Source of the DNA: Clavelina lepadiformis | Taxonomy: Eukaryota > Chordata > Ascidiacea > Aplousobranchia > Clavelinidae | DNA length: 64,000 nt | Assembly (NCBI RefSeq): GCF_947623445.1 | Contig: NC_135245.1 | Span: forward strand, 1,061,501 to 1,125,500 | Direction: 5' to 3' | Part shown: one piece after another, positions 38,273 through 60,410 of the stretch | How the letters are laid out: every line of letters begins with the position of its first letter | How positions within the stretch are numbered: the first letter of the stretch is position 1 | Translations under genes and position numbers: made by a program | The notes under the pieces: model-generated | Seen by the model: the letters and a program-made list of their open reading frames with translations, nothing else | Database searches by the model: none | Told to the model about the DNA's origin: nothing

Positions 38273-41200
38273 GTATGAGATTAATACATGTTTACATTTA
38301 TGCCGTAACTGTTTTACATGAAATTTTTACTTAAACCTAGCTGGAAAGTATGGCAGTTTTCGACAAGAAATTGTGCGTGCAAACACGCAAATTTTAGCGT
38401 GATGGCGTGCACTGAGACCTCAATTCTTTGTTTATTTATTATAAATCGGCGTGGTGAGTAAAATATTCGGCGTGTGCGTTGATGAAAGTCGTGCATGCAG
38501 CTGCCACACTTTCCACTATGGTACTTAAATAGACTATTAATGATTGACATTGGTTCTATGAAGATAAAATTTAATTAGATGTAATACGTAATACTGATAC
38601 GTTTAGGTTTTAAGTTTTAGGTTTATTTCAAATATTTTGTAATTTATCAATGCTTGCGTTATCCCACAAACTGAAACCTTACTTTGTAACAGAATGTTGT
38701 GTTGAAGAGCCTCAGGTGTTTGGGAAAGTCAGGAATTTTTGTGAGGCAACAAACCATAATACTTCAAATTACGATCAATATGTTGGTAGATCAACTGATT
38801 TTGTAAACAGTTTACTTTCATCTTCTCAAAGTAATCCCTTTGGTGCTTTCCTTGCTCTGAGATGCTTGTTCTGTAAGTTTCGGTTAATTTTGATACCTGC
38901 TTTTAGCAAACAAATTCATAGGCTACACTCAACCTTTTTAAACATTCTCAGAAATTTTTATTTTTTATTATTGTTTTTCTAAAAAATAACATCTGTAACA
39001 TAACATAACAACAAAAAATATCTGTTTCACTGACACATTGCTTGACTTACTTGTTTTTTTAATTAATATTGTAACTTTAATTCTAAGGCTTTTAAACAAA
39101 TTTTCTGTTGTAGCTAAAACTGACAGTCTTCGTATAACACTGTCAGCCTAAGCTTTGACTTATAAAATACGGCGTAAAATATTGGCACAAATTGGCCAGC
39201 ATGGTTCTGGCAGAAAATATATTTAACTTATTATTTCTGTCCGAGTGGACAAACCAATTTATTTTTGATGTGCAGTTTTTTCGATCTCAAATAGCTTTAA
39301 TATAATTTATAAACAGTTAAAAAATAAATAAATTTTTTATTTTCAAAAAGGGAGTTCTTCGTCTTCGGAATCGATTCGAGAAAATTTAATAAGTAAGTTT
39401 TTGTTAAAATTTTATAACAAAACAGTTTCAGTCAAAAGAAATCTCCAAGTCAAGTACCTTGCATTTGTTTCATGAAATTTAATTTGTCGTAATTTTTATG
39501 GATGACTATATGATGATGGTGATGAATTTTTATTATTTCATGGATGAAATCTTCTACTCGCATAGATTGTTGCAGCACTGTTGGTGTCTCGTCAACATGC
39601 CAATCATTTTTCTGTCGCCCAGAAATGTTTCTCTCTCCACCCAACATAGACCAAATATTAAATACCGCGTCACAATGTTCTGATGAGCTTTACGAAATAT
39701 CAAGTTGTTACCTGTCACCAGGTAAATACAGGTTTCTGATGATCATTACATGGTATTTTTGATTGTTTTGAGTATTTTTTACTGTTATGCTTCTTCCATG
39801 TGCCAAATCAGTAGTAATTTGTATGATTTGTTGCTTGATATAATATGACGTAACAACTTGACATGTCTCAGAACATATGTCGGTTCCTTTGTGTTAGCTT
39901 GTCTGCATATTGTGTTGTCTATTTTTCGCCATCATCTGTGCGGAGCGAAATTTAGGATGCTAACCGTTGTAGCTACAACACAATGATACACATGCTCACG
40001 AACAATTAACGAGCAGGAATAAGTGGCAAAGCCCAAGGGCTTAAAACATGCGAGGTAACAATAATAGAAATGTGTTATGAGAATTTAGGTTAGCATGGCC
40101 CCCAATCGATTTCATCTTTTACAGTTTGTGGTTATGTTTGGGCTACCAGAAAATTCCATGTTTGTCGTGTTAGGTAGCCCCCCTACCTTTAATATGGCAA
40201 CTAAGCTATTGTGCCACAAAACGGCTACAATTACTTTAAAATAAGTTGCTCTTGTTTAAAGATTATTTATATTCTAGGTTAGACTCTAGCACAGTGGCCC
40301 CAGACTGACTGCACAAAGGGCCACATTAAGTTTGAGGAAATCATTACGGACCGCAAATAGGGAAAACTCAAGTCTATTGTAAGCAAAGGACAGAGTTTAC
40401 TGAACTATGCGACCTAATGTTTTGCCGCATGATTAATGATGCACTTTTTGATTCTGTCTACTTGTTTGCGACTGTGTCTGCAACAAAGAGTAAAAATCAG
40501 CACGTGTGTGTGTCGTAAAAAGCATTGTTACTTCACAGTAATCACCTATTGACTTGCACTTTAATGACGTGCTGTGAGCTAATGTAATCCATTTAAGTAA
40601 AACGCAGTTGTGTTTTACCAACTGCTGATTTTGCAGTGGAAAATATGTTGTACTGCGAGTGTTTGCATGTGACCCTGGTTCGGACCACCCTACTCTAGAA
40701 CATTGTAATGCAACATTGAGCCTGAGAAAAAGTTTTATATGTAAAATATTAAAATTTTTCGTTATGCTTTTGTTACATCAGAATAAGTAGAAATAAACAA
40801 AATCCGGTAACGCGTAAACTAACTGCTCATTGCTTTCAGTGGTGAATATGTGTAGATTTACTCTGTTTGCCAGGCTACAGAAGTTTGTATCTTCAAGCAG
40901 AACTCTAAACAATGTCTAAAGCTGACCGGCTTTTTTGTTTTCTTGCAGTTTTTTGTCATAGCTTGCCCATGCATTTTTATAGGTTTAGGTTCAAATGGTT
41001 GCCCATCTAGCTGTTCAGAATCGTGCCACCCATTTTCATTTTGTACTGGATCATCGGATGATTGTTCGTGCCGATGTCAATTGGGGTTTACTGGAAATGG
41101 CACACACTGTGCAGGTAAAAAATCAAAAGAGGTCGTAAACCTCGTCAGATTTTATGACGTAATTTCTGCTGAACAGTAAATACGGATCAAGGGTTTTGCT

Positions 41201-44200
41201 GCGCTCGTTTCAAAACTACATTCGTGTTTTGGAAGTTAAGCATATACTGGCAGTGTTCATATAAAGAACATTAAGTTTTTTACAAACCACGCTCTTTGTA
41301 TTTCCTCGATCTACTAAACATTGACGAATGCGAGACAAACATGTATCTGGGATAGAAATATTATTTCAACTTTAGATTATGTCATATTGATGTCTGAACT
41401 GACTTACTTTGAATTCTGTTTGTATCGGTATGCAAAGTAGTTGGTATTGGTACCAATGTAGGTGCGTATGACACACGATTTTAATCAATTTGACAATGTT
41501 ACGACAAAAATCAAGTTTTATTATTTCCCAATAAATGACCATAAAGGCTTACGTTTATTTTTCCAGACATCGACGAGTGCGAGACAAATCTCCATATTTG
41601 CCATCAACACGCCTTCTGTTGGAACACTTTAGGAAGCTACTCTTGTTATTGTGATAGTGGGTTTTCTGGTGACGGGATCTTATGTGAAGGTATCTTGGAT
41701 AGAAATTACAATACCAAAAATATAAAATTTTTTATCTGTGGAAACAAACCTATAAGTTTTGAACATTGCGTGACAAATGTCACTTTAAGTGTAACTGTAT
41801 ACGCTTTTGCTGTTGAAGTCTTTGTACTATTTTGAAGCCTGAACAAGTTTTGAGGTTGCTTGGTTTATTGAGGACATAGGTAACTCATAAGAATTCATCA
41901 TTATCTTTGATAAAATCATCTTTGTTAATCGTTATATGCAGTATAATGATGGTAACATACAAACATTGGCAGCTGATTGCTAGGATAAGATCGCTGTTAT
42001 GACATGTGGCACAATATTGAAATATGTTTCTCTTTGAGTTAGCTTTATCTTTGCTAGTTATGCTTTTGGTTTTATTTCATTTGTCAGGCGGAACTAATCT
42101 GGATTTAAGCATGAATCATTTTCTTTGCAAGCTCTTCAATAAGAATTTGTAGAAATTTTGGGTTTTTGTTGACAATTTTTTTGCAGATTTTAATGAATGC
42201 TTGATAAATATTTGTGACAATAATTCTATCTGCACAAACACTTTGGGAAACTTCACCTGCACCTGTACCTCTGGTTTCACCGGCGATGGGTTGGAATGCT
42301 CAGGTAGAAAATTTCATTTTTGTGCACAATCACTTGAAGTGTTTAATCTCACACCCACCACGCATGTAATCAATGTTAAATATAATTATATCAAAATGCT
42401 TGTAAATTCATTGCATTTAAATTGAAAGTGTTCTTTAAATATTATTTTGGCTAAAATTTAATGGATTATTGCAAGTAAATTAGTTGTAAAATATAACTTG
42501 ACATACTTTAAATATAAGCAATGCACAAATTTTGTTCTTGTATGTTTTTTGTAGCATGCTAGTTGTATAATGTTAAAAAATAAGTCACATGGTGGTTTCA
42601 GGTCTCAGTGTATTGATTGAAAAGATTTTAAATTTCATGATATTGTTGTTGCTTTTGTTAAACAAAACTGGGTAGAATCTGGTCATTCCAGACTATCAGA
42701 CTCTGATGCAGACTTCATTTTGTGACAAATGTGTTTGTTGTATCACTTTTTGTACCTTACTTCATATGCTGCTTTCTAATCTCCACATGCATCTAAACTC
42801 TTTCTGAATTCTGTGCACAGTCTTTAAAAAAATGATCGTTGTTCGAATGATAGGTTATTTGTGTTTAGATGTTAATGAAAGTGATGATTTGGTTAATTTG
42901 GTTATCTCTAACAAGACTTGGATTATTTTAATAAATTAAAAAAGAATAATAATGAACATATTATAATTACTATAATATAATATTATAATTTTTAGTCTTA
43001 TTATGCCATGAAATATGTGTAAATATGTCACAGTGATTTTAAAGGAGTCTGGATATAAAATTTATCATTGAATATGTTTTAACAACATTTTTATGATCAA
43101 GATCAAAGGCATATTTAAATCTTTCAATTGTTTTTGAATAATTAGATTGAGATTAAACATAATTTTCCAGATATCAATGAATGCGCTGACAATCTATTAC
43201 ATAATTGTGGTGATAATGCTTTATGCACAAATGTTGTGGGAAGTTTTTCCTGCTCCTGCGATGTTGGTTTCACCGGTGACGGCCTAACGTGTGCAAGTAT
43301 GACTCTGTTATTTAAACCAGCGTGGTCCAACTTCTTTTCATCGCGGGCTAAAATCTGAAAATTTTTTATCTTGCGGGCCAATGTTTTTAAATTAGAACTG
43401 AAGAACAATGTGACATTGATATTAGAACTGAAAAAAGTTCTCTTTTTTATTAAAACTGAAATTAGAATAGTTCAAAATTTAGCTATTAAATGCTGATCAA
43501 TGTGAGATCTGCGGTCGAGGTTCTTCCTCGACAATAGCGACTATCAAAGCTGACTATCAGTTCGCGGGCCAAAAAATCCAAAGTTGGCCCGCGGGCCTGC
43601 AGTTGGACCACGCTGATTTAAACTATACGAACTCTGTGCTTAAGATCTTTTGTAAGACTGTTACGTTAAAACATTATCGAGCACATTATTGTCAAAAATG
43701 CATGTCTGAAGTGGATTATGTATACATAAAAACTTACATACCGTCTTGTCAACAGATATTACATCCCCAACCCCATCACTGCCGCCAAATCTTGTCAGGT
43801 ACACATTAACAGCTTATATATCTACCAATGCTGTGGGTGCCAACTCTGTTCTGATGATTAGAGATCAATTTCTTCAAGATGTACTGGAACCAACTTTGTC
43901 ACAGTTTGATGGCTTTCATTTGGTATGAATTTTGTTGATGTCTTATAATTTCACACGCGATTATAATTGCATCTGTTATTGTGATTTGGCAATGATATCT
44001 TTATTCTTCTTACAAATACATCATTCCTAAGCAAATTTGAGGCAACCACTTTGTTATTGCATAGTGTAAGAAAAGAGTTGCAAAATGTTAAGTTTTCGTT
44101 GACTATAAAGTGGGGGAAATGCCTGTAAATTTTTAAGAAATGCGTTTTTGCCAAAAACATCTTGATTTCTATCATTTACCATGCTGGTTATATACAAGTT

Positions 44201-47200
44201 TAACGATGACACCCTTGTTCATCAGGTACTTTGATTCAGTGCAATGGGCATAGTTAACAAATTCAGATTTGTCCATTCATTTATACTTTATAGTCTTGAA
44301 AATTCAGATTTGGTTTCCTTGGCCTGATGTCCTGATTATGACACAACTTACAGACACGTAATGGTTTTTGATAAACAATTGTAAATGGTGGTAAAATCCA
44401 CCAATTCTGTGTCGTAATTTTCAGATATGATCTCTGTTAAAGGATTTTTAATAATTTGCCTGCATTTATACACAACTCATGATACCACCTTTTGTTTTTA
44501 AGGTCAAGCCTCTTAACGAACAGTTGATTTCTGACGCAACAATAGAGCTCACGTTTGAAGCAGATTTCTTTGCGACTCTGACAACAAGTGGTCTTAAGTT
44601 CCCAACTTTGACGAGCATTCAAGAACAAATTCAGCAACGGTACAATCTTGTCAACTACCAGTTGCAAGGTGGACATGACATCATTCCCACTATGAATGTC
44701 ATCCACACTCGTAAGTGAAATGTTTATTCAATTAACACATTGCTAGTTAAATATCTTAATTACCTTCCATCAGGCATATCGTCAACAGGTTTTTTTTTAA
44801 GGTTTGGTTTGGGTGACCGCTAAGTAGTTTTAAGAGACCAAATTAACAAGACCAGAGTAGCAAGTCCAAATTTTGGGAAACTGCTGGAAAAATTTGGGGG
44901 ACCGTTTCGGTCCCCCAAAACACCTTAAAAAAACACTGCATATCGAAATAAAAATTCTTTGGTGTAAGATTTCTTTTTCTATCAACGTATCGGAAATCCT
45001 TGTGAGTTTGCTTCAAAGATGCAGTGGAAGTTTTCAAGCTAGCGTTGGCGAAAAATAATTTTCATTTTTACGGCAGAAAAGTTCTTTACTCTTTTATATC
45101 TGTAATTATTGAAGTCATACGCTATAACCGCAGAGTATTTAGAATATAAGTTAAGTATATTCTTGAAACAGTTATTGTGCATAAATGAAAGGTAAATGCA
45201 CAAAATTGAGTAATAAAATAGATACGACATTTGAACAAAGTTTGCACCAAAGATACACTTGCAGAACAAAAAATATGGTAAAAACACCTTTTTATTCCCA
45301 GAAATTAATAATGGCTGTGATACCCATGTATGTGTTTCACCACCGAACAATTTCAACCATGTCTGTGTTGCTATCGGCCCCAACACCAGCAAATGTATGT
45401 GTGTTAATGTCATCGCCAACGTGGAAGTTCATTGTGAAGACATGGGTATGTTTTGGTTTAACTAAACCATTTTTTTTTGTATCTGTATATAAATGTGTTA
45501 TTTGCACTGCATTTAAATTAGATTTTAAAATAGAGTTGTGGCTGCCGGTTTTTTGTTACATTTATTTGCTTGAACAAAGGCAATTATTGATTTTCAGCTG
45601 TTTGTTCAAATGATTTTGACTGTCGTCAAAATGCGACATGCTTTGGTACCGGTACTCAGTTGTATAACGGCAGCTGTTCTTGTGATGAAGGTTATATTGG
45701 AAATGGCTTCATCCAGCCTTGCACAGGTGATTTTGTAAACCTATTCTGTTTGTTTTGGTCACAATGTCGGAACAATTTGGATTTGGTGTCCGTGTTAACT
45801 TTTCAATGGCATAGCATGCCACTGCATGAAATCAACACCTTGTACGTTTTAAGTTTTTGGGCTTTGCCGCTTTTTGCTCGCTTGTTGATTGTTTGTGAGC
45901 GTATTTCTTGTTCAGCTACAACGAGTTTAGCACCAATCTTTTCGTTCCCCACAGTCAATGGCAAAAGTAAATAAATAAATCAAACCACATGCAGTAATCT
46001 AAGACCATAACAAACGTAGTAAGTCTGGGCCTGGCAATTTTTTGCTTTTTATTCAGTATTAATTTTAAACTGTCAAATTTATCAAAAAATAATGATACAA
46101 TCAACAGATATTTTTGTGTAGCTTTTCTTTATGCAGTGTGACTGTTTGTTTATGGTTATCTTTCAAATTTTTTTCTCTCAATCATGTCCATGGCTATGGC
46201 TCTAGTAGTACCTTCAGTCATTGAATTTATGTGTAACTTGTAGCCAGTATGCGTTTTAGAGTGTAAGTTAGAACTGTATTCTGTAAAGAAACAAATTTTT
46301 GTGGTTTTATTTCATTCGTCAGGTGGAACTAATCTGGATTTAAGCTTGAATCATTTTATTTGCAAGCTCTTCAATATAAATTTGTAGAAATTTTGGGTTT
46401 TGTTGACCATTTTTTTTGCAGATTTTAATGAATGCTTGGTAAATATTTGTGACAATAATTCTATCTGCACAAACTCCTTGGGAAATTTCACCTGCACCTG
46501 TACCTCTGGTTTCACCGGCGATGGGTTGGAATGCTCAGGTAGAAAATTTCATTTTTGTGCACAATGAATTAAAGTGTTTAATCTCACACCTACCACGCAT
46601 GTAAGCAATGTTAAATATAATTATATCAAAATGCTTGTAAATTCATTGCGTTTTAATTGAAAGTGTTCTTAAAATATTACTTTGGATAAAATTTAATGGA
46701 TTATTGCAAGTAAACTTGTTGTAAAACATAACTTGACGTACTTTGAATTTAAGCAATGCACAAATTTTGTTTTTGTATGTTTTTTGTAGCATTCTAGTTG
46801 TATAATGTTAAAAAATAAGCTACATGGTGATTTTTTGGTCTCAGTGTATTGATTGAAAAGATTTTAAATTTCATGATATTAGTGTTGCCTTTGTTAAACA
46901 AAATTGGGCAGAATCAGATCATTCCGGACTATCAGACTCTGATGCAGACTTCATTTCGTGACAAATGTGTTTGTTGTATCACTTTTTGTACCTTGCCCTT
47001 GTTCATAATGACAATATTCTTTCATGCTTACTGCATCGGCTTAAGACACATATATTTGCACCAAAGAACATGGTTAGTTGTCAAGTGCGCATTTACTTCA
47101 TGTGCTGCTTTCTAATCTCCACATACACCGAAACTCTTTCTGAATTCTGTGCACAGTCTTTAAAAAAATGATCGTTGTTCGAATGATAGGTTATTTGTGT

Positions 47201-50200
47201 TTAGATGTTAATGAAAGTGATGATTTGGTTAATTTGGTTATCTGTAACAAGACTTGGATTATTTTAATAAATTAAAAAAGAATAATAATGAACATATTAT
47301 AATTACTATAATATAATATTACAATTTTTAGTCTTATTATGCCATGAAATATGTGTAAATATATCACAGAGATTTTAAAGAAGTCTGGATATAAAATTTA
47401 TAGTTGCATATGTTTTTAACGACATTTTTTATGATCAAGATCAAAGGCAAGTTTAAATCTTTCAATTGTTTTTGAATAATTAGATTGAGATTAAACATAA
47501 TTTTTCAGATATCAATGAATGCGATGACAATCTATTACATAATTGTGGTGATAATGCTTTATGCACAAATGTTGTGGGAGGTTTTTCCTGCTCCTGCGAT
47601 GTTGGTTTCACCGGTGACGGCATAACGTGTGCAAGTATGACTCTGTTATTTAAACTATATGAACTCTGTGCTTAAGATCTTTTGTAAGACTGTTACGTTA
47701 AAACATTATCGAGCACATTATTGTCAAAAATGCATGTCTGAAGTGGATTATGTATACATAAAAACTTACATACCGTCTTGTCAACAGATATTACATCCCC
47801 AACCCCATCACTGCCGCCAAATCTTGTCAGGTACACGTTAACAGCTTATATATCTACCAATGCTGTGGGTGCCAACTCTGTTCTGATGATTAGAGATCAA
47901 TATCTTCAAGATGTACTGGAACCAACTTTGTCACAGTTTGATGGCTTTCATTTGGTATGAATTTTGTTGATCTCTTGTTTCCTAATTTGACATGCGATTA
48001 TAATTGTATCAGTTATTGTGATTTGGCAATAACATCTTTATTCTTCTTACAAATACATCATTCCTAAGCAAATTTGAGGCAACCACTTTGTTATTGCATA
48101 GTGTAAGAAAAGAGTTGCAAAATGTTAAGTTTTCGTTGACTATAAAGTGGGGGAAATGCCTGTAAATTTTTAAGAAATGCGTTTTAGCCAAAAACATCTT
48201 GATTTCTATCATTTACCATGCTGGTTGTATACAAGTTTAAGGATGACACCTTTGTTCATCAGGTACTTTGATTCAGTGCAATGGGCATAGTTAGCAAATT
48301 CAGATTTGTACTTTATAGTCTTGAAAATTCAGATTTGGTTTCCTTGACCCGATATCTTGATTATGACACAACTTACAGACACGTCATGGTTTTTCATAAA
48401 CAATTGTAAATGGTGGTAAAACCCACCAATTCTGTGTCGTATTTTTCAGATTTGCTCTCTGTTGAAGGATTTTTAATAATTTGCCTGCATTTATACACAA
48501 CTTATGATACCACCTTTTGTTTTTAAGGTCAAGCCTCTTAACGAACAGTTGATTTCTGACGCAACAATAGAGCTCACGTTTGAAGCAGATTTCTTTGCGA
48601 CTCTGACAACAAGTGGTCTTAAGTTCCCAACTTTGACGAGCATTCAAGAACAAATTCAGCAACGGTACAATCTTGTCAACTACCAGTTGCAAGGTGGACA
48701 TGACATCATTCCCACTCTGAATGTCATCCACACCCGTAAGTGAAATGCTTATTTAATTAAAATATTGCTACTTAAATACCTTCCATCAGGCATATCGTCG
48801 ATATCGACATAAAACATTTTTTGCTGTAAGATTTTTTTTCTATCAACGTATCGGAAATCCTTGTGAGTTTGCTTCAAAGATGCGGTGGAAGTTTTCGAGC
48901 TAGCGTTGGCGGAAAATAATTTTCATTTTTACGGCAGAAAAGTTCTTTACTCTTTTATATCTGTAGTTATTGAAGTCATAATAATTGAAGCTATAACCGC
49001 AGATTATTCAGAATGTAAGTTAAGCATATTCTTGAAACAGTTATTGTGCCATTTGTGCATAAATGAAAAGTGAATGCACAACAATGAGTAATAAAATAGA
49101 TACAAAGTTTGCACCAAAGATACACTTAAAGAACAAAAAATACGGTGGTAACACCTTTTTATTCCCAGAAATTAATAATGGCTGTGATACCCATGTATGT
49201 GTTTCACCACCGAGCGGTTTCAACCATGTCTGTGTTGCAATCGGCCCCAACACCAGCAAATGTATGTGTGTTAATGTCATCGCCAACGTGGAAGTTCATT
49301 GTGAAGACATGGGTATGTTTTGGTTTAACTAAACCATTTTTTTGTATCTGTATATAAATGTGTTATTACACTGCATTTAAATTAGATTTTAAAATATAGT
49401 TGTGGCTGCCGGTTTTTTGTTACATTTATTTGCTTGAACAAAGGCAAAAAATGTGTTATTGCTTTTCAGCTGTTTGTTCAAATGATTTCGACTGTCGTCA
49501 AAATGCGATGTGCACTGGTACTGGTGCTCAGTTTTATACCGGCAGCTGTTCTTGTGACGAAGGTTACACTGGAGATGGCTTCATCCAGCCTTGCACAGGT
49601 GATTTTGTAAACCTTTTCTGTTTGTTTTGGTCACAATGTCGGAACAATCTGGATTGTGTGTCCGTGTTAACTTTTCAATGGCATAGCATGCCACTGCATG
49701 AAATCAACACCTTGTACGTTTTAAGTTTTTGGGCTTTGCCGCTTTTTGCTCGCTTGTTGATTGTTTGTGAGCGTATTTCTTGTTCAGCTACAACGAGTTT
49801 AGCACCAATCTTTTCGTTCCCCACAGTCAATGGCAAAAGTAAATAAATAAATCAAACCACATGCAGTAATCTAAGACCATAACAAACGTAGTAAGTCTGG
49901 GCCTGGCAATTTTTTGCTTTTTATTCAGTATTAATTTTAAACTGTCAAATTTATCAAAAAATAATGATACAATCAACAGATATTTTTGTGTAGCTTTTCT
50001 TTATGCAGTGTGACTGTTTGTTTATGGTTATCTTTCAAATTTTTTTCTCTCAATCATGTCCATGGCTATGGCTCTAGTAGTACCTTCAGTCATTGAATTT
50101 ATGTGTAACTTGTAGCCAGTATGCGTTTTAGAGTGTAAGTTAGAACTGTATTCTGTAAAGAAACAAATTTTTGTGGTTTTATTTCATTCGTCAGGTGGAA

Positions 50201-53200
50201 CTAATCTGGATTTAAGCTTGAATCATTTTATTTGCAAGCTCTTCAATATAAATTTGTAGAAATTTTGGGTTTTGTTGACCATTTTTTTTGCAGATTTTAA
50301 TGAATGCTTGGTAAATATTTGTGACAATAATTCTATCTGCACAAACTCCTTGGGAAATTTCACCTGCACCTGTACCTCTGGTTTCACCGGCGATGGGTTG
50401 GAATGCTCAGGTAGAAAATTTCATTTTTGTGCACAATGAATTAAAGTGTTTAATCTCACACCTACCACGCATGTAAGCAATGTTAAATATAATTATATCA
50501 AAATGCTTGTAAATTCATTGCGTTTTAATTGAAAGTGTTCTTAAAATATTACTTTGGATAAAATTTAATGGATTATTGCAAGTAAACTTGTTGTAAAACA
50601 TAACTTGACGTACTTTGAATTTAAGCAATGCACAAATTTTGTTTTTGTATGTTTTTTGTAGCATTCTAGTTGTATAATGTTAAAAAATAAGCTACATGGT
50701 GATTTTTTGGTCTCAGTGTATTGATTGAAAAGATTTTAAATTTCATGATATTAGTGTTGCCTTTGTTAAACAAAATTGGGCAGAATCAGATCATTCCGGA
50801 CTATCAGACTCTGATGCAGACTTCATTTCGTGACAAATGTGTTTGTTGTATCACTTTTTGTACCTTGCCCTTGTTCATAATGACAATATTCTTTCATGCT
50901 TACTGCATCGGCTTAAGACACATATATTTGCACCAAAGAACATGGTTAGTTGTCAAGTGCGCATTTACTTCATGTGCTGCTTTCTAATCTCCACATACAC
51001 CGAAACTCTTTCTGAATTCTGTGCACAGTCTTTAAAAAAATGATCGTTGTTCGAATGATAGGTTATTTGTGTTTAGATGTTAATGAAAGTGATGATTTGG
51101 TTAATTTGGTTATCTGTAACAAGACTTGGATTATTTTAATAAATTAAAAAAGAATAATAATGAACATATTATAATTACTATAATATAATATTACAATTTT
51201 TAGTCTTATTATGCCATGAAATATGTGTAAATATATCACAGAGATTTTAAAGAAGTCTGGATATAAAATTTATAGTTGCATATGTTTTTAACGACATTTT
51301 TTATGATCAAGATCAAAGGCAAGTTTAAATCTTTCAATTGTTTTTGAATAATTAGATTGAGATTAAACATAATTTTTCAGATATCAATGAATGCGATGAC
51401 AATCTATTACATAATTGTGGTGATAATGCTTTATGCACAAATGTTGTGGGAGGTTTTTCCTGCTCCTGCGATGTTGGTTTCACCGGTGACGGCATAACGT
51501 GTGCAAGTATGACTCTGTTATTTAAACTATATGAACTCTGTGCTTAAGATCTTTTGTAAGACTGTTACGTTAAAACATTATCGAGCACATTATTGTCAAA
51601 AATGCATGTCTGAAGTGGATTATGTATACATAAAAACTTACATACCGTCTTGTCAACAGATATTACATCCCCAACCCCATCACTGCCGCCAAATCTTGTC
51701 AGGTACACGTTAACAGCTTATATATCTACCAATGCTGTGGGTGCCAACTCTGTTCTGATGATTAGAGATCAATATCTTCAAGATGTACTGGAACCAACTT
51801 TGTCACAGTTTGATGGCTTTCATTTGGTATGAATTTTGTTGATCTCTTGTTTCCTAATTTGACATGCGATTATAATTGTATCAGTTATTGTGATTTGGCA
51901 ATAACATCTTTATTCTTCTTACAAATACATCATTCCTAAGCAAATTTGAGGCAACCACTTTGTTATTGCATAGTGTAAGAAAAGAGTTGCAAAATGTTAA
52001 GTTTTCGTTGACTATAAAGTGGGGGAAATGCCTGTAAATTTTTAAGAAATGCGTTTTAGCCAAAAACATCTTGATTTCTATCATTTACCATGCTGGTTGT
52101 ATACAAGTTTAAGGATGACACCTTTGTTCATCAGGTACTTTGATTCAGTGCAATGGGCATAGTTAGCAAATTCAGATTTGTACTTTATAGTCTTGAAAAT
52201 TCAGATTTGGTTTCCTTGACCCGATATCTTGATTATGACACAACTTACAGACACGTCATGGTTTTTCATAAACAATTGTAAATGGTGGTAAAACCCACCA
52301 ATTCTGTGTCGTATTTTTCAGATTTGCTCTCTGTTGAAGGATTTTTAATAATTTGCCTGCATTTATACACAACTTATGATACCACCTTTTGTTTTTAAGG
52401 TCAAGCCTCTTAACGAACAGTTGATTTCTGACGCAACAATAGAGCTCACGTTTGAAGCAGATTTCTTTGCGACTCTGACAACAAGTGGTCTTAAGTTCCC
52501 AACTTTGACGAGCATTCAAGAACAAATTCAGCAACGGTACAATCTTGTCAACTACCAGTTGCAAGGTGGACATGACATCATTCCCACTCTGAATGTCATC
52601 CACACCCGTAAGTGAAATGCTTATTTAATTAAAATATTGCTACTTAAATACCTTCCATCAGGCATATCGTCGATATCGACATAAAACATTTTTTGCTGTA
52701 AGATTTTTTTTCTATCAACGTATCGGAAATCCTTGTGAGTTTGCTTCAAAGATGCGGTGGAAGTTTTCGAGCTAGCGTTGGCGGAAAATAATTTTCATTT
52801 TTACGGCAGAAAAGTTCTTTACTCTTTTATATCTGTAGTTATTGAAGTCATAATAATTGAAGCTATAACCGCAGATTATTCAGAATGTAAGTTAAGCATA
52901 TTCTTGAAACAGTTATTGTGCCATTTGTGCATGAATGAAAAGTGAATGCACAACAATGAGTAATAAAATAGATACAAAGTTTGCACCAAAGATACACTTA
53001 AAGAACAAAAAATACGGTGGTAACACCTTTTTATTCCCAGAAATTAATAATGGCTGTGATACCCATGTATGTGTTTCACCACCGAGCGGTTTCAACCATG
53101 TCTGTGTTGCAATCGGCCCCAACACCAGCAAATGTATGTGTGTTAATGTCATCGCCAACGTGGAAGTTCATTGTGAAGACATGGGTATGTTTTGGTTTAA

Positions 53201-56200
53201 CTAAACCATTTTTTTGTATCTGTATATAAATGTGTTATTACACTGCATTTAAATTAGATTTTAAAATATAGTTGTGGCTGCCGGTTTTTTGTTACATTTA
53301 TTTGCTTGAACAAAGGCAAAAAATGTGTTATTGCTTTTCAGCTGTTTGTTCAAATGATTTCGACTGTCGTCAAAATGCGATGTGCACTGGTACTGGTGCT
53401 CAGTTTTATACCGGCAGCTGTTCTTGTGACGAAGGTTACACTGGAGATGGCTTCATCCAGCCTTGCACAGGTGATTTTGTAAACCTTTTCTGTTTGTTTT
53501 GGTCACAATGTCGGAACAATCTGGATTGTGTGTCCGTGTTAACTTTTCAATGGCATAGCGTGCCACTGCATGAAATCAACACCTTGCACGTTTTAAGTTT
53601 TTGGGCTTTTCCGCTTTTTGCTCGTTTGTTGATTATTTGTGAACGTATTTCTTGTTCAGCTACGACGACTTTAGCACCAATCTTTTCGTTCCCCACAGTC
53701 AGTGGCAAAAATAAACAAATCAAACCACATGCTGTAATCTAAGACCATAACAAACGTACTGTGCCTAAGTCTGGCAATTTTTTGCTTTTTATTCAGTATT
53801 AATTTTAAACTGTCAAATTTATCAAAAAATAATGGTACAATCAACAGATAATTACTTTTGTGTAGCTTGTACTTTTCTTTATGCAGTGTGACTGTTTGTT
53901 TATGGTTATCTTTCAAATTTTTTTCTCTCAATCATGTCCATGGCTATGGCTCTAGTAGTACCTTCAGTCATTGAATTTATGTGTAACTTGTAGCCAGTAT
54001 GCGTTTTAGAGTGTAAGTTAGAACTGTATTCTGTAAAGAAACCTATTTTTCTAGAGTTGGATTCTTGTTCAACAAATCCACCAAACTGCGACACGCACGC
54101 AAATTGTGTTGATTCAAATGACGGGCCTTCTTGCGTCTGCAGAATGGGTTTCACTGGAGATGGGATCGATTGTGAAGGCTTGAATTTTAATATTTTGTTT
54201 GTTTTTTAACATTATGATTTTCGCAATTGGCTTGTTGTGGTATGGCAGTAATTTTGTTGTTGACCGATAAATTTTGGTCTGAGTTTTTTGGTGTCCTTAA
54301 TGTGGAGTCCACATTTCTCAGAAGTTTTTTTTAAGAGACATGAAAACTGTTGAAAACTACTGGTCTCGTAATTTCATATAAAGCTTTGTACCGTCAGATT
54401 TCATGTTAGGATAAGTTTCTAACTGTCAACTTGTGTGCTAGATTGCTGTTTCATTGTTGCAGAAATCAATGAATGTGAATCAGGCGCCCACAACTGTCAT
54501 CCGAATGCGTCTTGCCATAACACTGTCGGCAGTTTTCTGTGTTCGTGCCAAGAAGGTTTTGCCGGTGACGGAAGGAATTGCAAAGGTAGATGCAAAGTTC
54601 TTTGCTACTTAATGGCAAAATCAGAATTAAGATCTAGTTGGTTAATTTGTTAATGATTTTGTATCGGTTACTATTAAGGTCAATTATTACGTCACAATTT
54701 AAAAAAGCAACCAAGCAAAATATGAAACACTGCAGTTGTCAATCCAGTTGAAATTTCCTGTTGTGACTTTAGAGTTTTCTCCCACACTAGCTCCGATTGG
54801 TTTAGTCCACGGCTAACGCTGCAACTTCATTTATTTTGACTCATTTTGAGCTTCCCGTGCCTGTGTCGCTTAGAAATGGTTTGCTGCTTAGATTTGCACG
54901 TCGTTGTTTTTCTTTAAAAAATACTGTGTGCTTCATTTTTCAGCGCTTTGAAAGATGCCAATAGTTAGTTCTGAGAGAGGGGTCACCATACTTTATTTGC
55001 TTTTATGCTTATCACGCAACAGTATATTCCATGCATGTAAAAACGTTTCCTCCAACAGAAATATCGATCCCAGTGAGCGTCACAAACAACGATGTCTTGT
55101 ATAGAATAGAGACCACAGTAATGGTAAATCCAACAACCAACTCTCGAAAAACAGAAATCATCGACATGCTGAAGAATAGTCTGCTCATACCGGCCATTTC
55201 TTCACTGTCAGGCTACTCTACGGTACTCTACGGCTTAGTGGTCTGTCTGATCCCGTCATTATTGTTAAAGCGCTCTTTTCTTCGTCACATTGCAAAGTTA
55301 CTCAATATTTTGAATAAAATTTTACTCTTTTTCAATAATCTTTGCTTAGAGTTACTGAAATATTTGGTGATGAAGTTTAATCTATGAACAAGCGAACAAT
55401 TCCTTGATTTCTATGCAGCTGCGAGATATAAACGACAGAATTGGAAGCTTAATTGTGACATCAGAAGCGGTGTTTGAAGCGACGGAAGCAAATGGAGGAT
55501 TCACGTTTCCATCGATCGATGACGTCCGGGATCAACTTGGCAGTCGAGGTCAGGTGTTGAACTTCCAGCTCCCTGACTCCTCCCTGTTTTCGTCCGACTT
55601 CCAAGTTTCAAGAACAAGTAAGTCCTTGAATTACTTAAGCCTCAATATTCCTGGATTATTGTAGATCTCAAACTATCGGTCCAGGTCAAAGGGTCTCCAT
55701 TGGTCCGGCCCCGCTTCACTGTGCCACAAGTGATCTTATTGTAATGTAGCTTATTCACACAAAGCCGGAATTCAGCCCGCAATCGTCAATTCTCATGCTT
55801 TGTGGCCCTTTGTGGAAAAATGTTTGTTGATTAGTGGTTTAGTTGGCGACAGTTAAGTGTAATGAACTAATGATGCTCCATTTGTAAACAATAAATTAAG
55901 ATTTGAATAAGACTCCTCATAACTCAAAAGCAACAAAGACCCAGAACCTCCAAGTTTGTGGAAATTGTGGATAAGAATAGCAGATTAATCAAAAAGGTTG
56001 CTTCCTTATAACTTGTCAATACGATTTCTATGACCAGGTACCCATGGCCACTGCGACTCGAATTCTCCGTGTCCCTCTCCACCTACAGGGTACTCCGGAT
56101 TTTGTGTCGATGTTGGGTCTTCTGATAATTTTGCTTGCATCTGTGTCGATGCTGCTGGCTCTGAAGTAGATTGCTTCTCTGTTATTTCCACAACAGCGGG

Positions 56201-59200
56201 TACGTTGGCATGATAAATGCGGTTTGCGTGTATAGCAGTTATATAGCACTAAGCTATACCGCGTTGTTGCCACTGCACTGTGCCGGCATCCAAACGTACA
56301 TCGACAAGTTAATCTCTTCTATAACTTGTACCTTTTTGCTTTATTTATAGTCATTGTGATGTAACTATGGGTCATTTTCTATTTCAAGAATTTTCATGGC
56401 TTTCAGATACGACACCAGCAACTACTGACGTCCCATTAGGCGCGATTATCGGTGCCGTTGTGGGGGGTGTGGTTGTCGTGGCATTGTTGGTCGCGGTCAT
56501 CGTCGTCTGTTGTCGCCGTCGTTCTGCAGGAAAGAGCAAAACCAAGAGACCGAGTGACGATTACGTCAGCGATTACGTCAGCGCGCAATATCTAAACACC
56601 AATTTCTCAAAAGTGAGTTTGTTGTAGCTGTTGTTGTTAAATGAGTCTTAAGATGGATTTGATTTTTGCCCATGTGTTGTGGCTAGTTGTCCAACCGTCT
56701 TCTTGTTTCCAATTTATGCTCTATGACGTAGCTATGTCCAGCGAAAGTATCTCCCTGGGCAAAATACACCTTCGCTTTCACATGAGGCAGCATGGTGCAC
56801 TCGTGAGCATGATCAAGTTAACGCAGGTTTAATTGGGAAGAGAATCAATAAAAAAATGAAACAACTGCAGAATAAATTCACTGTTCGGTCAACTAGTTTG
56901 TTTCGGTTTGATCTTAGATAAAAAAGATATTATTTTACTGAATTCGTAAACTTCTTCTGCAGTTATTGTCAATTATTCTATGCATCGGATCGTCAACAGA
57001 CAGAAAAGCCCATGACTAAGAAGATTTACTCGCAATACAACAATACATTTGCAAAAAATGAATGCAACATATAAAGCGAAAATCAAAACCATTTCTAGAT
57101 TGCGCAGCCCTTTGTGCGATCATTTAAAAAAATTTTGACCAAGTAGCTCAGCAAATCGTTTTTTGGAGATACCGGTCTGTTGTAGTCCATTCCTTTAGGT
57201 CAGGATTTTTTCACCAACTGTTTGCTTCTTAAAAACTAAGATTATTATCATTAAACCATGGATATGCAACAAGGAAATAATTGACCGGGCCACAAAGTGA
57301 GGATGCCTGGTGTAGCATGACTTTTAGACGTGTTACAGGTCTTCCAAAGCTGTCTTCGAACTTCAAAAGCATTTTGTGGTAAAATGTTGTTTTTAGGAAA
57401 ATCCTGATACAATTTATGCCGAAATTCCAGCGGCACAGGCCATGAATCCCAAGATCTTATCCGACATGACAATGGTAATTTGTATATTTAACCATATACT
57501 ATATTTACACTTAATAAAGGCAGGATACATTTGCAGTTGGAAAAATTTTAATGTCATCATGTCTCACTGACGTTTTTTATTTGAAGGACGACGGTTACTT
57601 AGACCTGATTGGTGCCAAGATGAAACAGAATACCGGTAGCCAGGTGTGTAACACTTTTGAGCTTTTTTCCAACACTTGCCCCTCACTTTGAGATCTTAAT
57701 TAAACCTGGTGACACAACCAAGTAGAAAATCATACCTTTGAAAATCAGAGTCTAACTCACAATATTATAACAACGGCCTAATGGTGATGCGGTAACACCC
57801 GAAGAAACTTGCAAACGCTTGTGATGATGAAATTAACCTTTGGAGTTTTGACTTTTCCTGCTGCTCCCTTCATAACATGCGTGTGGATGTTGTCTCACCA
57901 TCTGCTTTGACCCGTGTTATGTGATCTGGTTCCAATGCTAAGCGTCTCAGTCTCTAGACAATTCGATTTGAACCATTAACATTGAACAATAGCATGACTA
58001 AATGTCACATGATTCCAAATAAAAACTATTTTACAGCCGAGAAAGAGGATTTCCGTAGACAACCAGTATGAGAAGCCCATATCAACAAAGAACCCACCTT
58101 TGCCTCAAAATCACCCGACAGGAAGTCAGAAAGTATGTCAATGACAATTTTCTCTTCAAAGAACTGACATTTAATTGATCACTTATCTGTGTAAGGATTT
58201 TCTGACAATGTCTTTGTTCTTTTCTGTGGACAAACTTGTCAGTGATTCTCAACACAACACGCCTTGCTTAATTCAGTGATGACAGTACACAAAGCTTTCG
58301 AACGCAACTCCGTGTAAAGCCTTAAGCGCTGGTAAGGATTCAAACAAACTGACGGTGGATTTTCTTCGTTTTCCAAAGGTACCAAGCGCACCGACATTTT
58401 CCACGATTGTCGAAAATGAAACTGAAGATGGTTATACGAAGCCTGATCAAGTGTCACTGGAGAAACCACCTCTGCCCCGCAACCACCCTTCACTTGTGAA
58501 ACCGGTATGTGGTTCAGGAGTTTTTATGATTGTCATTTAACTTGCGCTAACACTTAATGTTACATTGGTTTTGCTGATTCCATGGATATATTCGTTTGAA
58601 TAAGTTCTTCATTGATATTTTGCAAACAATTCATAGCGTCCAGTTACATTTCAAAGATCATTTTTAAAGCTGCTTCTAAATTACCAAAAAAAGCAACATT
58701 TGCTGTTTTGGATTCTGGCCGCATATTTCATGACAGAATTATCACATGTTTGATTATTGTTTTACAAAGGAGTCAAATGTTCCAGAAACTTCGCAAATCA
58801 ACATGCAAGAAACTGAGGATGGATATTTGGAGCCTGGCCTGATGTCAACCGGTGAGATTTTAAAGTGATCTTTCATCATTGACCAGATTTGTTAATGATT
58901 TTATTTTCACAACATCTCAGAAAAAGCTGATCCGTCATCGATAAATGAAAAACTCGGAGCCAAAAAGTACAACAAACTTCATGAAGAGATTCTGCCAGCA
59001 ACAGAAAACTACAACCAACTTGAGAAGGAAATACCTATGTTGGACGAAGGTTTGTTCCGAGTTTGGTATATCTCCTTTTGAGTGATGAATTTACCTCAAT
59101 GTGATAAACCAGAAGTCACCAAACTTCGACCGGCGAGATTAGTTTGTCCAGCCTCACTGTGCCACAAATGAACTTATTGTAGCTTATTGACCAAAGCAGT

Positions 59201-60410
59201 ATTCTGGCCTGCAATTGTCAGTTCTCGTGCTTATGTGATCTTTCCTGGAAAAAGTTTGGCGACGTATATTCTAAGCAACAAATTGCAAAGTTCCAACCAA
59301 TTTTTTACTGAAGATAAATTTTAAACGTTCGAATCTCTAGAACCCGGTTATGACGTCACCATACCTGGTCGCAAAATGGCGGGAAATGTTCACGTAACGG
59401 AAGAAATGAAACCAACCATGAAGATATGTCCTGGCGCGGAAGAGGTTTCTGTTTTGTCGGTTTAGTTAAGATTTGAGATTATTGTAGAGAAAATTATCAG
59501 GCACCCTATACTAGTATACTTACTCCAACTTACCGACAAGTTTGGGGTAAAATTTAATTTGTTTTTTCCGACATTTATTTCTGTTCTTTCAGAGCAAAAA
59601 CGAAGGTGCGGAGAAAAGCAATACTGCAGTTTATGACGGTTGGTGCCTAAACCTTTAGTCTTGTCAGCCAGAAATTTTAAAATGTTTATAAAACTATGTC
59701 CATGGTCAACTGCTTAATTTTGTTACAGTCGCTGAATATGAGAGCGGCGAAGTCCTGTCAGGAAATGGTGAGTTGCCTTTAAAAATGATAATTTCAAACT
59801 TTCCAGTAACTTCTGGAAGGATTATTTGCATTTCTTCACTGCTATCTGTCCTATTCAAATTTAGTGCGTTTCGTTTTTTTTTGAATTCTAACGTGAAATT
59901 CACACACGTAGTAGCTTGAAAAACTGTGTAATTTCTTTATCGCAATCAGGGTTATTAGATGTCATTTATATCTAAACCCCTTAGCATTTACCACACAAGA
60001 AATTACGCTCATGGGTGCAATAACGTAGCCACTGTTTCACCCTCATCAGTTAGGTCCAGTCCTCATCAAGCTAAAGGTCTTCTAGTTTTTTTACAAGTCT
60101 CTGTATTAGCTTGTTCCTCACCGCTATTTTCCCATTCTTCCGGTTCATTCCTCTGCGTGATTTGTAGCTTCCTCTATTGTATTTTTGCTACTTAGGTACC
60201 TGGTACTCTTTTTGTCCGTTTTGTCTTTACTTCTCGTGGAATGCCCAGTTTCAAGAATACTGATTTTATTTTCACGTCATTCCAGAAAAAACTGAACCAT
60301 CGTTGTTGGATGGGAAACTGGAAGCCAAAAAGCTCAACCAACTTCATGGAGAATTTCTGTCTAAAACAGAAAACTACAACCAGCTTGAGCAGGAAATACC
60401 CACGGCATGA
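36144..60410 (+). CDS. Large EGF/SEA-like receptor with Reeler domain and tyrosine-motif tail
   Basis: A 46-exon model of about 1,948 aa, or 1,931 if the third linker exon is skipped. Exons: 36144-36342, 37088-37221, 37840-37955, 38187-38272, 38693-38872, 39351-39392, 39566-39721, 40989-41114, 41567-41689, then three seven-exon blocks (listed separately), then 54055-54177, 54463-54585, 55059-55222, 55419-55617, 56038-56199, 56407-56612, 57397-57474, 57587-57643, 58037-58132, 58379-58504, 58770-58851, 58921-59049, 59341-59444, 59593-59638, 59729-59767 and 60286-60410. Order: signal peptide (1-19), Reeler (about 30-178), Cys-rich module, EGFs, three EGF/SEA-like blocks, EGF pair, SEA-like, EGF, membrane helix (about 1598-1622), tail of some 325 residues. 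Nearly all ectodomain exons are phase 1-1, so blocks can be gained or lost in frame. It is probably a cell-surface receptor signalling through phosphotyrosine. An alternative last exon (59950-59975) would end the tail early. Confidence 0.83.
37972..38071. repeat. Intronic inverted repeat with an extra internal copy
   Basis: Arm GGTCTAGTATGCAAGTGCAC (continuing 5 bp) at 37972-37996 is complementary to 38047-38071 with two mismatches. A third copy of GGTCTAGTATACAA lies between them at 38022-38035. It could fold into a hairpin. It is in the intron right after the third Reeler exon. Confidence 0.6.
38693..39721 (+). other. Cys-rich module of uncertain family in the receptor
   Basis: Three phase 1-1 exons (38693-38872, 39351-39392, 39566-39721) encode about 126 residues with ten cysteines, including two CC pairs: [17 protein letters not shown] and [17 protein letters not shown]. 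The second resembles the CC-x-GV-x-C-x-C spacing of the nematode DB module and of ECM1-like proteins. The match is by pattern only and could be wrong. It ends with two spaced cysteines (ASQC, SSC) before the first EGF exon. Confidence 0.5.
40989..41689 (+). other. First two EGF exons of the receptor
   Basis: Exon 40989-41114 (an alternative in-frame acceptor gives 40983) encodes an eight-cysteine EGF-like segment starting [11 protein letters not shown] and ending GFTGNGTHC. Exon 41567-41689 is a calcium-binding EGF: DIDEC at the start, [12 protein letters not shown] matching the Asp/Asn beta-hydroxylation consensus, and GFSGDGILC at the end. Between them, at 41320-41365, lies a decayed copy of the second exon. 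Confidence 0.8.
41320..41365 (+). pseudogene. Decayed, internally deleted EGF exon relic
   Basis: The segment ACATTGACGAATGCGAGAC matches the first bases of the calcium-binding EGF exon at 41567 with two changes. It is followed almost at once by GTATCTGGGATAGAAAT, which matches the start of that exon's downstream intron. About 100 bp of the exon body is therefore missing, and there is no AG acceptor in front. This is a lost EGF exon, not a functional one. Confidence 0.7.
42187..45966 (+). other. EGF/SEA-like block 1 of the receptor
   Basis: Seven exons: 42187-42303 (cb[13 protein letters not shown]), 43171-43296 (cb[11 protein letters not shown]), 43756-43922 and 44503-44710 (together one SEA-like module, split in phase 0), 45302-45445 ([12 protein letters not shown]), 45598-45726 (EGF, CRQNATC) and 45916-45966 (17-residue linker). 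The total is 942 nt, 314 residues, and the block starts and ends in phase 1. The SEA call rests on length, strand-like pattern and similarity to the second SEA-like module at 55059-55617 ([12 protein letters not shown]). The CRQNATC in the last EGF fits the O-fucose consensus C2-x4-S/T-C3. A 298-bp hAT MITE sits in the intron after the second EGF. Confidence 0.78.
43318..43615. mobile_element. hAT-type MITE (298 bp) with perfect 8-bp target duplication
   Basis: Terminal inverted repeats start CAGCGTGGTCCAACTT and end AGTTGGACCACGCTG. It is flanked by identical ATTTAAAC at 43310-43317 and 43616-43623. The same intron in blocks 2 and 3 carries the uninterrupted site (GTTATTTAAACTAT at about 47,646 and 51,518), which serves as empty sites. 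The interior has GCGGGCC-rich inverted motifs. Confidence 0.93.
45800..49671 (+). repeat. 3,872-bp tandem duplication, first copy
   Basis: This copy and the next (49672-53543) align at a constant 3,872-bp offset through exons and introns. Sequence before about 45,787 differs from the second copy (for example ATTTGG against ATTGTG), and the third copy departs at about 53,560. The junction therefore falls within about 30 bp of 45,787-45,816. The break lies in the intron after the CRQNA EGF exon, so the duplicated block is linker, cbEGF, cbEGF, SEA-like, EGF, EGF. Confidence 0.88.
46422..49838 (+). other. EGF/SEA-like block 2 of the receptor
   Basis: Exons 46422-46538, 47509-47634, 47788-47954, 48528-48735, 49169-49312, 49470-49598 and 49788-49838 have the same lengths and phases as block 1. 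Block 2 is closest to block 3 and more distant from block 1 in its first half. Its last EGF reads CRQNAMC, so the Thr of the O-fucose consensus present in block 1 is lost. The intron after the second EGF is free of the MITE. Confidence 0.8.
49672..53543 (+). repeat. 3,872-bp tandem duplication, second copy
   Basis: Near-identical to 45800-49671. By eye I found one substitution (A at about 49,058, G at about 52,930) in the parts compared. Such identity in introns means a very young duplication, recent gene conversion, or a false duplication in the assembly. Confidence 0.88.
50294..53710 (+). other. EGF/SEA-like block 3 of the receptor
   Basis: Exons 50294-50410, 51381-51506, 51660-51826, 52400-52607, 53041-53184, 53342-53470 and 53660-53710. 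The protein sequence is the same as block 2 up to the last EGF. The final linker exon has lost its donor: blocks 1 and 2 read GGCAAAA followed by GTAAAT, whereas here it is ATAAAC. The linker is therefore probably skipped. Skipping keeps the frame because the exon is 51 nt and phase 1-1. Confidence 0.78.
54055..56199 (+). other. Membrane-proximal EGF, cbEGF, SEA-like and EGF exons
   Basis: 54055-54177 encodes an EGF ([17 protein letters not shown]) whose donor is GC, not GT. 54463-54585 is a cbEGF ([12 protein letters not shown]) with CHPNASC, an O-fucose consensus, and [12 protein letters not shown], a beta-hydroxylation consensus. 55059-55222 plus 55419-55617 form a SEA-like module ([27 protein letters not shown]). 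56038-56199 is a last EGF-like segment ([14 protein letters not shown]). SEA modules often sit near the membrane and can self-cleave; no clear GSVVV cleavage site is seen here. Confidence 0.75.
55690..55830. repeat. Dispersed repeat, copy 1 of 2
   Basis: This intronic segment shares CACTGTGCCACAA, CTTATTGTA, GTAGCTTATT and CAATYGTCARTTCTC with 59140-59245 in the same order. It is a diverged interspersed repeat of unknown class, with no clear termini. Confidence 0.55.
56407..60410 (+). other. Transmembrane helix and tyrosine-motif tail of the receptor
   Basis: Exon 56407-56612 gives a 25-residue helix ([20 protein letters not shown] and following) ending CCRRR, then [12 protein letters not shown]. 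The following exons add TIYAEI (57397-57474; fits the ITSM form TxYxxI), GYLDLI (57587-57643), QYEKP with PPLPQNHP (58037-58132), GYTKP with PPLPRNHP (58379-58504) and GYLEP (58770-58851). Then come KYNKL-x10-YNQL (58921-59049; ITAM spacing), GYDVTI (59341-59444), VYDV (59593-59638) and EYESG (59729-59767). The last exon, 60286-60410, is a copy of the ITAM-like exon with LNQL-x10-YNQL and then the stop. That is 13 tyrosines in all. The motifs predict SH2 and SH3 adaptor binding. Exons 56407 to 58504 join in phase 0, later ones mostly in phase 1. Confidence 0.78.
59140..59245. repeat. Dispersed repeat, copy 2 of 2
   Basis: Related to 55690-55830 by ordered blocks (CACTGTGCCACAAATGA, CTTATTGTAGCTTATT, GCAATTGTCAGTTCTC). 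It lies in an intron of the receptor tail. Confidence 0.55.

Follow-up and report, generated by a model that had tools for sequence, protein, structure and literature searches.

A candidate phosphotyrosine docking tail on a Reeler/EGF receptor-like protein of the ascidian Clavelina lepadiformis

A receptor-like protein predicted in the genome of the ascidian Clavelina lepadiformis combines Reeler and EGF domains with a tail that may serve as a multi-site phosphotyrosine platform on which proteins of the SYK, Grb2 and CRK types dock; we put the chance of this reading at about even (probability roughly 0.5). Support comes from an open frame across 40 exons, acidic residues ahead of the tail tyrosines, repeated motifs, constraint between this tail and that of a paralogue, and the set of SH2 genes in the same genome. 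From the sequence we infer expression, phosphorylation, every binding partner and a biological role in adhesion, phagocytosis or cell recognition.

A receptor-like gene of 40 exons

The window is the whole 64-kb stretch of DNA analysed (C6:1061501-1125500); feature coordinates below are window positions, and places elsewhere carry the contig name. Its source had been predicted from the letters to be a tunicate, and it is indeed Clavelina lepadiformis. When joined by hand, 40 exons form one open frame with consistent phases, predicted to encode a receptor-like protein that has a single membrane helix in addition to its Reeler and EGF domains. All introns of the model are GT-AG, the sole exception being a GC donor after exon 25; this exon seems to end at that donor (window 54177), and only thus is the frame kept. 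The gene and its main ectodomain features are as follows.

36144..60410, + strand: gene model of 40 exons, 1773 amino acids
36144..38272, + strand: exons 1-4, signal-like start and Reeler domain (Pfam PF02014, E 1.4e-22)
42187-45726, 46422-49598 and 50294-53470, + strand: exons 7-24, an EGF-EGF-(SEA-like)-Cys-EGF module present three times in near-identical form

From the N terminus to the C terminus, the order is a start that reads by eye as signal-like, the Reeler domain, an EGF array, the three module copies, an EGF-EGF-(SEA-like)-Cys module, the transmembrane segment and the tail. The Pfam scan of the protein, from whose query module copies 2 and 3 were omitted, found EGF domains as well as the Reeler domain, and Ig, sushi, EMI and lectin domains are absent from its matches, listed at E up to 0.001. 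The original prediction of an EGF/SEA/Reeler receptor is therefore borne out by Pfam for Reeler and EGF and finds no such backing for SEA: the two SEA-like modules scanned gave no SEA match, and no Pfam match at all, up to E = 10. The last SEA-like/Cys module has no match outside the window in a genome search up to E = 1. The one predicted membrane helix lies in exon 30, where Pfam TM_ErbB1 scores 29.5 bits (cut-off 27.1), a match that we read as a transmembrane segment only.

The module of about 3.87 kb stands in three tandem copies (window 42187-53470). Copies 2 and 3 are identical at 891 of 891 exonic bases and 99.0% identical across 3761 bp, and copy 1 is 96.9% identical in exons; the near-identity of copies 2 and 3 could reflect a very recent duplication or expansion, a conversion or an assembly effect. 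Elsewhere in the window, a 1426-residue open frame on the - strand (11803-16080) contains 630 Thr and 177 Pro, is built of repeats at intervals of mostly 45 and 72 bases, and is mucin-like. The next frames on the + strand (62286-63632) begin with one that has a membrane-anchor-like segment; the two scanned gave no Pfam match over the cut-off.

Tail exons and their motifs

The proposed joined tail at 56407-60410 is upheld in the gene model: its 11 exons (30-40) share one open frame, and all 10 intervening introns have GT-AG borders. The tail runs for 326 residues after VVCC, in line with the predicted length of about 325, and has 14 tyrosines in place of the 13 that had been counted. Its exons, all on the + strand, are listed below; exon 30 is placed by frame, splice sites and the TM_ErbB1 match, exons 31-36 and 40 by the gene model, and exons 37-39, the least certain stretch of that model, by splice sites and frame alone.

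56407..56612, + strand: exon 30, transmembrane helix, basic stop-transfer, then YLN (Grb2-type)
57397..57474, + strand: exon 31, TIYAEI (ITSM-like; also YxxI)
57587..57643, + strand: exon 32, DDGYLDL (hemITAM-type DGYxxL)
58037..58132, + strand: exon 33, NQYEKP and NPPLPQNHP; resembles exon 34
58379..58504, + strand: exon 34, TEDGYTKP and a PPLPxNHP segment
58770..58851, + strand: exon 35, TEDGYLEP
58921..59049, + strand: exon 36, KKYNKL-x10-ENYNQL (ITAM-like, long spacer)
59341-59444, 59593-59638 and 59729-59767, + strand: exons 37-39, EPGYDV and VYDVAEY
60286..60410, + strand: exon 40, KKLNQL...ENYNQL and the stop codon; duplicate of exon 36

The motifs read in the original prediction are all present as given, namely TIYAEI, YNKL-x10-YNQL, YEKP/YTKP/YLEP and two PPLPxNHP segments (exons 33 and 34). 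Exons 33, 34 and 35 appear to be diverged copies of a single exon with a YxxP site; the repeated unit consists of YxxP followed by PPLPxNHP 5-7 residues on. The tail holds three YxxP sites (YEKP, YTKP and YLEP; none is YDxP) and five Yxx[LIV] sites (YAEI, YLDL, YNKL, YNQL and YNQL). Two acids precede DGYxxL (MDDGY), and a triacidic run is absent. Strict ITAMs with a spacer of 6-8 residues, classic ITIMs ([IVLS]xYxx[ILV]) and NPxY motifs for PTB docking each number zero in the tail. A Pfam search of the tail gave nothing above threshold, with a sub-threshold match to ribosomal S25 (E 0.1); the tail is probably disordered. The consensus motifs used here include those for Grb2 (YxN), Nck, WW domains and YxxPhi signals.

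Motifs within and beyond chance expectation

To gauge chance levels, the tail was shuffled 100,000 times with its composition preserved; the motifs counted were picked after the sequence had been seen. An ITSM (TxYxx[VI]) occurs at least once in 7,967 shuffles (8.0%), a loose ITAM with a spacer of 6-12 in 4,442 (4.4%) and three or more YxxP in 11,691 (11.7%), which places each of these motifs near chance level. Five or more Yxx[LIV] sites occur in 4,952 shuffles, and at least one YxN in 65,046, about one being expected by chance. In joint counts that are post hoc, ITSM and loose ITAM coincide in 511 of 100,000 shuffles, and both with three YxxP in 42.

Two features are beyond chance. Three [DE]DGYxx[LP] and two PPLPxNHP each occur in 0 of 100,000 shuffles ([DE]DGYxxL in 48, plain PPLP twice in 8), and their copy number reflects exon duplication, so that the repeats are not independent events in these tests. 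Acidic residues fill 17 of the 56 positions within four residues before the tyrosines, a number reached in 101 of 20,000 shuffles.

A second tail, and constraint between the two

Searches with tail segments across the genome (209 Mb, 95 contigs) find one other such tail, at C6:845957-848085 on the - strand, about 274 kb away. With two loci at E up to 0.001, the window and this paralogue, the idea of a large family of such tails was dropped; raising the limit to E 10 adds four further weak places among the best candidates scored (E 0.33 to 3.3). A DNA pattern for segments of the PPLP/PPFPx[NK]HP type hits six places, three of them in the two tails, and a reversed control hits one.

The paralogue holds counterparts of exons 30, 31, 32, 34 (twice) and 35; a separate counterpart of exon 33 was not seen at this locus. 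An in-frame stop lies within the exon 35 counterpart, ahead of its EDGYLEP motif, and past the stop a short frame weakly matches the beginning of exons 36/40 (E 4.2) and lacks their tyrosines. Among frames of at least 45 residues in the 10 kb upstream, inspected by eye, no EGF or Reeler exons were seen; one frame there resembles uridine phosphorylase. The paralogue may represent a copy that has decayed or else a protein of adaptor-like type; with its stop and no ectodomain seen it may be decaying, in which case the constraint described below may stem from the window copy alone.

The two tails differ in ways that bear on individual motifs. From window to paralogue, exon 30 changes YVSA to YVNP and YLNT to YLNI (DYVNPRYLNI in the paralogue), exon 31 changes TIYAEI to EVYAEI, so that in this one comparison the ITSM threonine is a glutamate, and exon 32 changes DDGYLDL to DAGYLDL, DGYxxL there reading AGYxxL. 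EDGYTKP of exon 34 is EDGYLDP in both copies, one of which carries PPPLPGKHP, and EDGYLEP of exon 35 is unchanged.

Seven of the 14 window tyrosines are alignable with the paralogue, where six are kept (one of them, in EDGYLEP, past the stop) and the seventh is opposite a gap; the motif-setting residue at +2 or +3 is retained at five of the six. Synonymous divergence is 0.84, 0.73, 0.89 and 0.76 in exons 30, 31, 32 and 34, and 0.60 for the second exon-34-like copy. Exon 35 (window 58770-58851 against C6:845957-846038) is near-identical, with dS 0.06 and, flanks included, 78% similarity over 209 columns; set against the 0.73-0.89 of the other four exons, this suggests gene conversion. When exons 30, 31, 32, 34 (first copy) and 35 are taken together, in a comparison with one paralogue of the same genome, dS is 0.64, dN 0.25 and dN/dS 0.38, with chi-square p 1.4e-6 (7e-7 without exon 35), all approximate values from fractional counts.

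These data bear on an alternative in which the tail is mostly unconstrained and disordered, and its motifs are look-alikes produced by duplicated exons and chance. The near-chance rates of the single motifs fit such a tail, as does the comparison of exon 36 with exon 40 (dS 0.51, dN 0.24), in which constraint is not significant (p 0.15). For eight of the 14 tyrosines the paralogue offers no matching tyrosine (seven are in exons not found intact, one in the gap), and its tail is itself shortened by the stop. The dN/dS between the two tails and the retention of six of seven alignable tyrosines argue against this alternative, and we consider it unlikely.

Candidate docking proteins and a possible mechanism

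A family search finds 72 SH2 exon matches in the genome, among which four genes were classified. A kinase region and a pair of SH2 domains share a single frame, for which SYK and ZAP-70 are the best solved relatives. The other genes are best matched by a CRK-like protein (CRK/CRKL-like), SHP2 and SHIP2; the last, at C3:6385319, resembles SAP, yet SHIP2 is its best match and SAP a weaker one. With SYK-, CRK-, SHP2- and SHIP2-like genes, part of the signalling parts list is available. A review of Botryllus, which is reported to lack LAT and SLP-76, describes a fuller set of such parts (PMC12065747).

If the tail is a docking platform, a ligand or cell contact would cluster the receptor, and Src-family kinases would then phosphorylate the tail tyrosines. 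A SYK-family kinase would dock through its SH2 domains on the hemITAM-type DDGYLDL, and perhaps also on YNKL/YNQL; YLN would take adaptors of the Grb2 type and the YxxP sites those of the CRK/Nck type. SH3 or WW proteins would be kept close by the PPLPxNHP segments. The repeated unit of YxxP and PPLPxNHP goes back to exon duplication.

The CRK part of this scheme has an old precedent: binding of the CRK SH2 domain to pYxxP predates animals, and choanoflagellates have transmembrane proteins with cytosolic YxxP repeats (PMC5043372). The preferences given in PMC2689226 are pYDxP for the CRK SH2 domain and PxxPx[KR] for its SH3N domain. That none of the three YxxP sites matches pYDxP counts against CRK docking. 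The CRK SH3 domain was rejected as reader of PPLPxNHP: PPLPRN and PPLPQN misfit the SH3N preference, which PPLPGK of the paralogue alone fits (PMC2689226).

A sorting function would account for some of the same sites. YAEI, YLDL, YNKL, YNQL and YNQL could serve as YxxPhi clathrin-adaptor signals in the endocytic tail of a scavenger or adhesion receptor, phosphotyrosine being secondary. All five fit the YxxPhi consensus, the ectodomain is EGF-rich, and exons 36 and 40 share only the second tyrosine of the pair, the pattern to be expected where YxxL sites work singly. This explanation leaves YxxP, YLN, PPLPxNHP and the acids before the tyrosines unaccounted for, and the copies exceed what sorting should need; we regard it as improbable.

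The original prediction of a tail that uses ITSM and ITAM motifs together, a switch receptor like vertebrate SLAM-type and ITAM receptors, fares worse. The text of TIYAEI does match TxYxx[VI], YNKL-x10-YNQL can be taken as an ITAM with a long spacer, and genes for a kinase of the SYK family and a phosphatase like SHP2 are present in the genome. Use of TIYAEI as an ITSM is not borne out, given its frequency in shuffles and the glutamate of EVYAEI in the paralogue, and the one SAP-resembling SH2 gene among those classified matches SHIP2 better than SAP. Nor is use of an ITAM borne out: the YxxL pair has a spacer of 10 residues, whereas the canonical spacer is 6-8 (PMC3819593), exon 40 has a leucine at the position of the first tyrosine of exon 36, with only the second tyrosine common to both, and the pair was not found at the paralogous locus. 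SLAM and PD-1 have an Ig ectodomain, whereas here no Ig family is among the Pfam matches at E up to 0.001 and a Reeler domain with EGF domains stands instead. We dropped true ITSM and ITAM motifs as the main reading, the shuffles and the paralogue and exon 40 comparisons giving them little weight, and now think them very unlikely.

Relation to known receptors

The closest known systems resemble the window gene; on present comparisons, this amounts to likeness, and membership of the Draper, FcoR, BbLcLRR or choanoflagellate YxxP families is not demonstrated. Draper and MEGF10, engulfment receptors of the CED-1 family, are likewise single-pass with an EGF-like ectodomain and signal from tail tyrosines through Src-family and then SYK-type kinases (PMC4503800, PMC8092387). 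Draper-I has an ITAM and the splice form Draper-II an ITIM, which places activating and inhibitory motifs on separate isoforms (PMC4503800, PMC8092387). The window gene differs from Draper, CED-1 and MEGF10 in its Reeler domain, in having no EMI among its Pfam matches and no NPxY in its tail, and it is related to them by likeness, with homology not established.

The fester co-receptors (FcoR) of Botryllus, also type I receptors of a tunicate, have long tails that bear ITIM, hemITAM and core YxxI/L/V motifs, and some of their sites have an acid before the tyrosine and are likened to those of LAT and SLP-76 (PMC12065747). Their ectodomain is of Ig and sushi domains and they occupy 53 loci, whereas the present one is Reeler/EGF and two such tails were found. 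With these Botryllus receptors and the Draper ITAM/ITIM isoforms in the published record (PMC12065747, PMC4503800, PMC8092387), the earlier statement that the combination would be novel was too strong. A receptor that combines motifs of this kind is nothing new, and the resemblance here to the immune switch and activation motifs of vertebrates is weak.

HemITAM receptors share the DGYxxL core that signals through SYK, here DDGYLDL; theirs are lectin-like, with the motif near the N terminus and a triacidic run (PMC3819593), whereas the window protein has two acids, a C-terminal tail and no lectin domain among its Pfam matches. BCAR1/p130Cas and choanoflagellate YxxP transmembrane proteins likewise carry several YxxP per chain (PMC5043372, PMC2689226). 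Compared with such CRK-docking arrays, the three YxxP sites here (15 in p130Cas) include no YDxP and are intermixed with other motifs. BbLcLRR of amphioxus is, like the window gene, an invertebrate chordate receptor with several tail tyrosines, and it associates with SHIP1 and SHP1/2 in Jurkat cells; it is, however, an LRR receptor with ITIM-type sites, and the sequence that resembles an ITSM is part of its predicted ectodomain (PMC8211107). The literature searched showed no such tail attached to a Reeler/EGF ectodomain, and its partial coverage makes this weak evidence of absence.

Implications for ascidian signalling

A bolder version, which we consider highly doubtful, is that, in a lineage reported to lack LAT and SLP-76 (PMC12065747), the receptor's own tail doubles as a scaffold of the LAT/SLP-76 kind (Grb2-type YLN, SYK-type DGYxxL, YxxP and PPLP), the paralogue being an adaptor-like form of transmembrane segment plus tail. 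Receptor and scaffold would then be one molecule, and the paralogous locus would have hardly any ectodomain. A scaffold role is already proposed for some FcoR tails in the Botryllus review (PMC12065747); the receptor class here would be a different one. If the tail serves as a docking platform that binds SYK-, Grb2- and CRK-type proteins, it would give a testable explanation of how ascidians cope in the absence of LAT and SLP-76, and an ascidian receptor outside the Ig and lectin classes would join the phosphotyrosine machinery of immune receptors.
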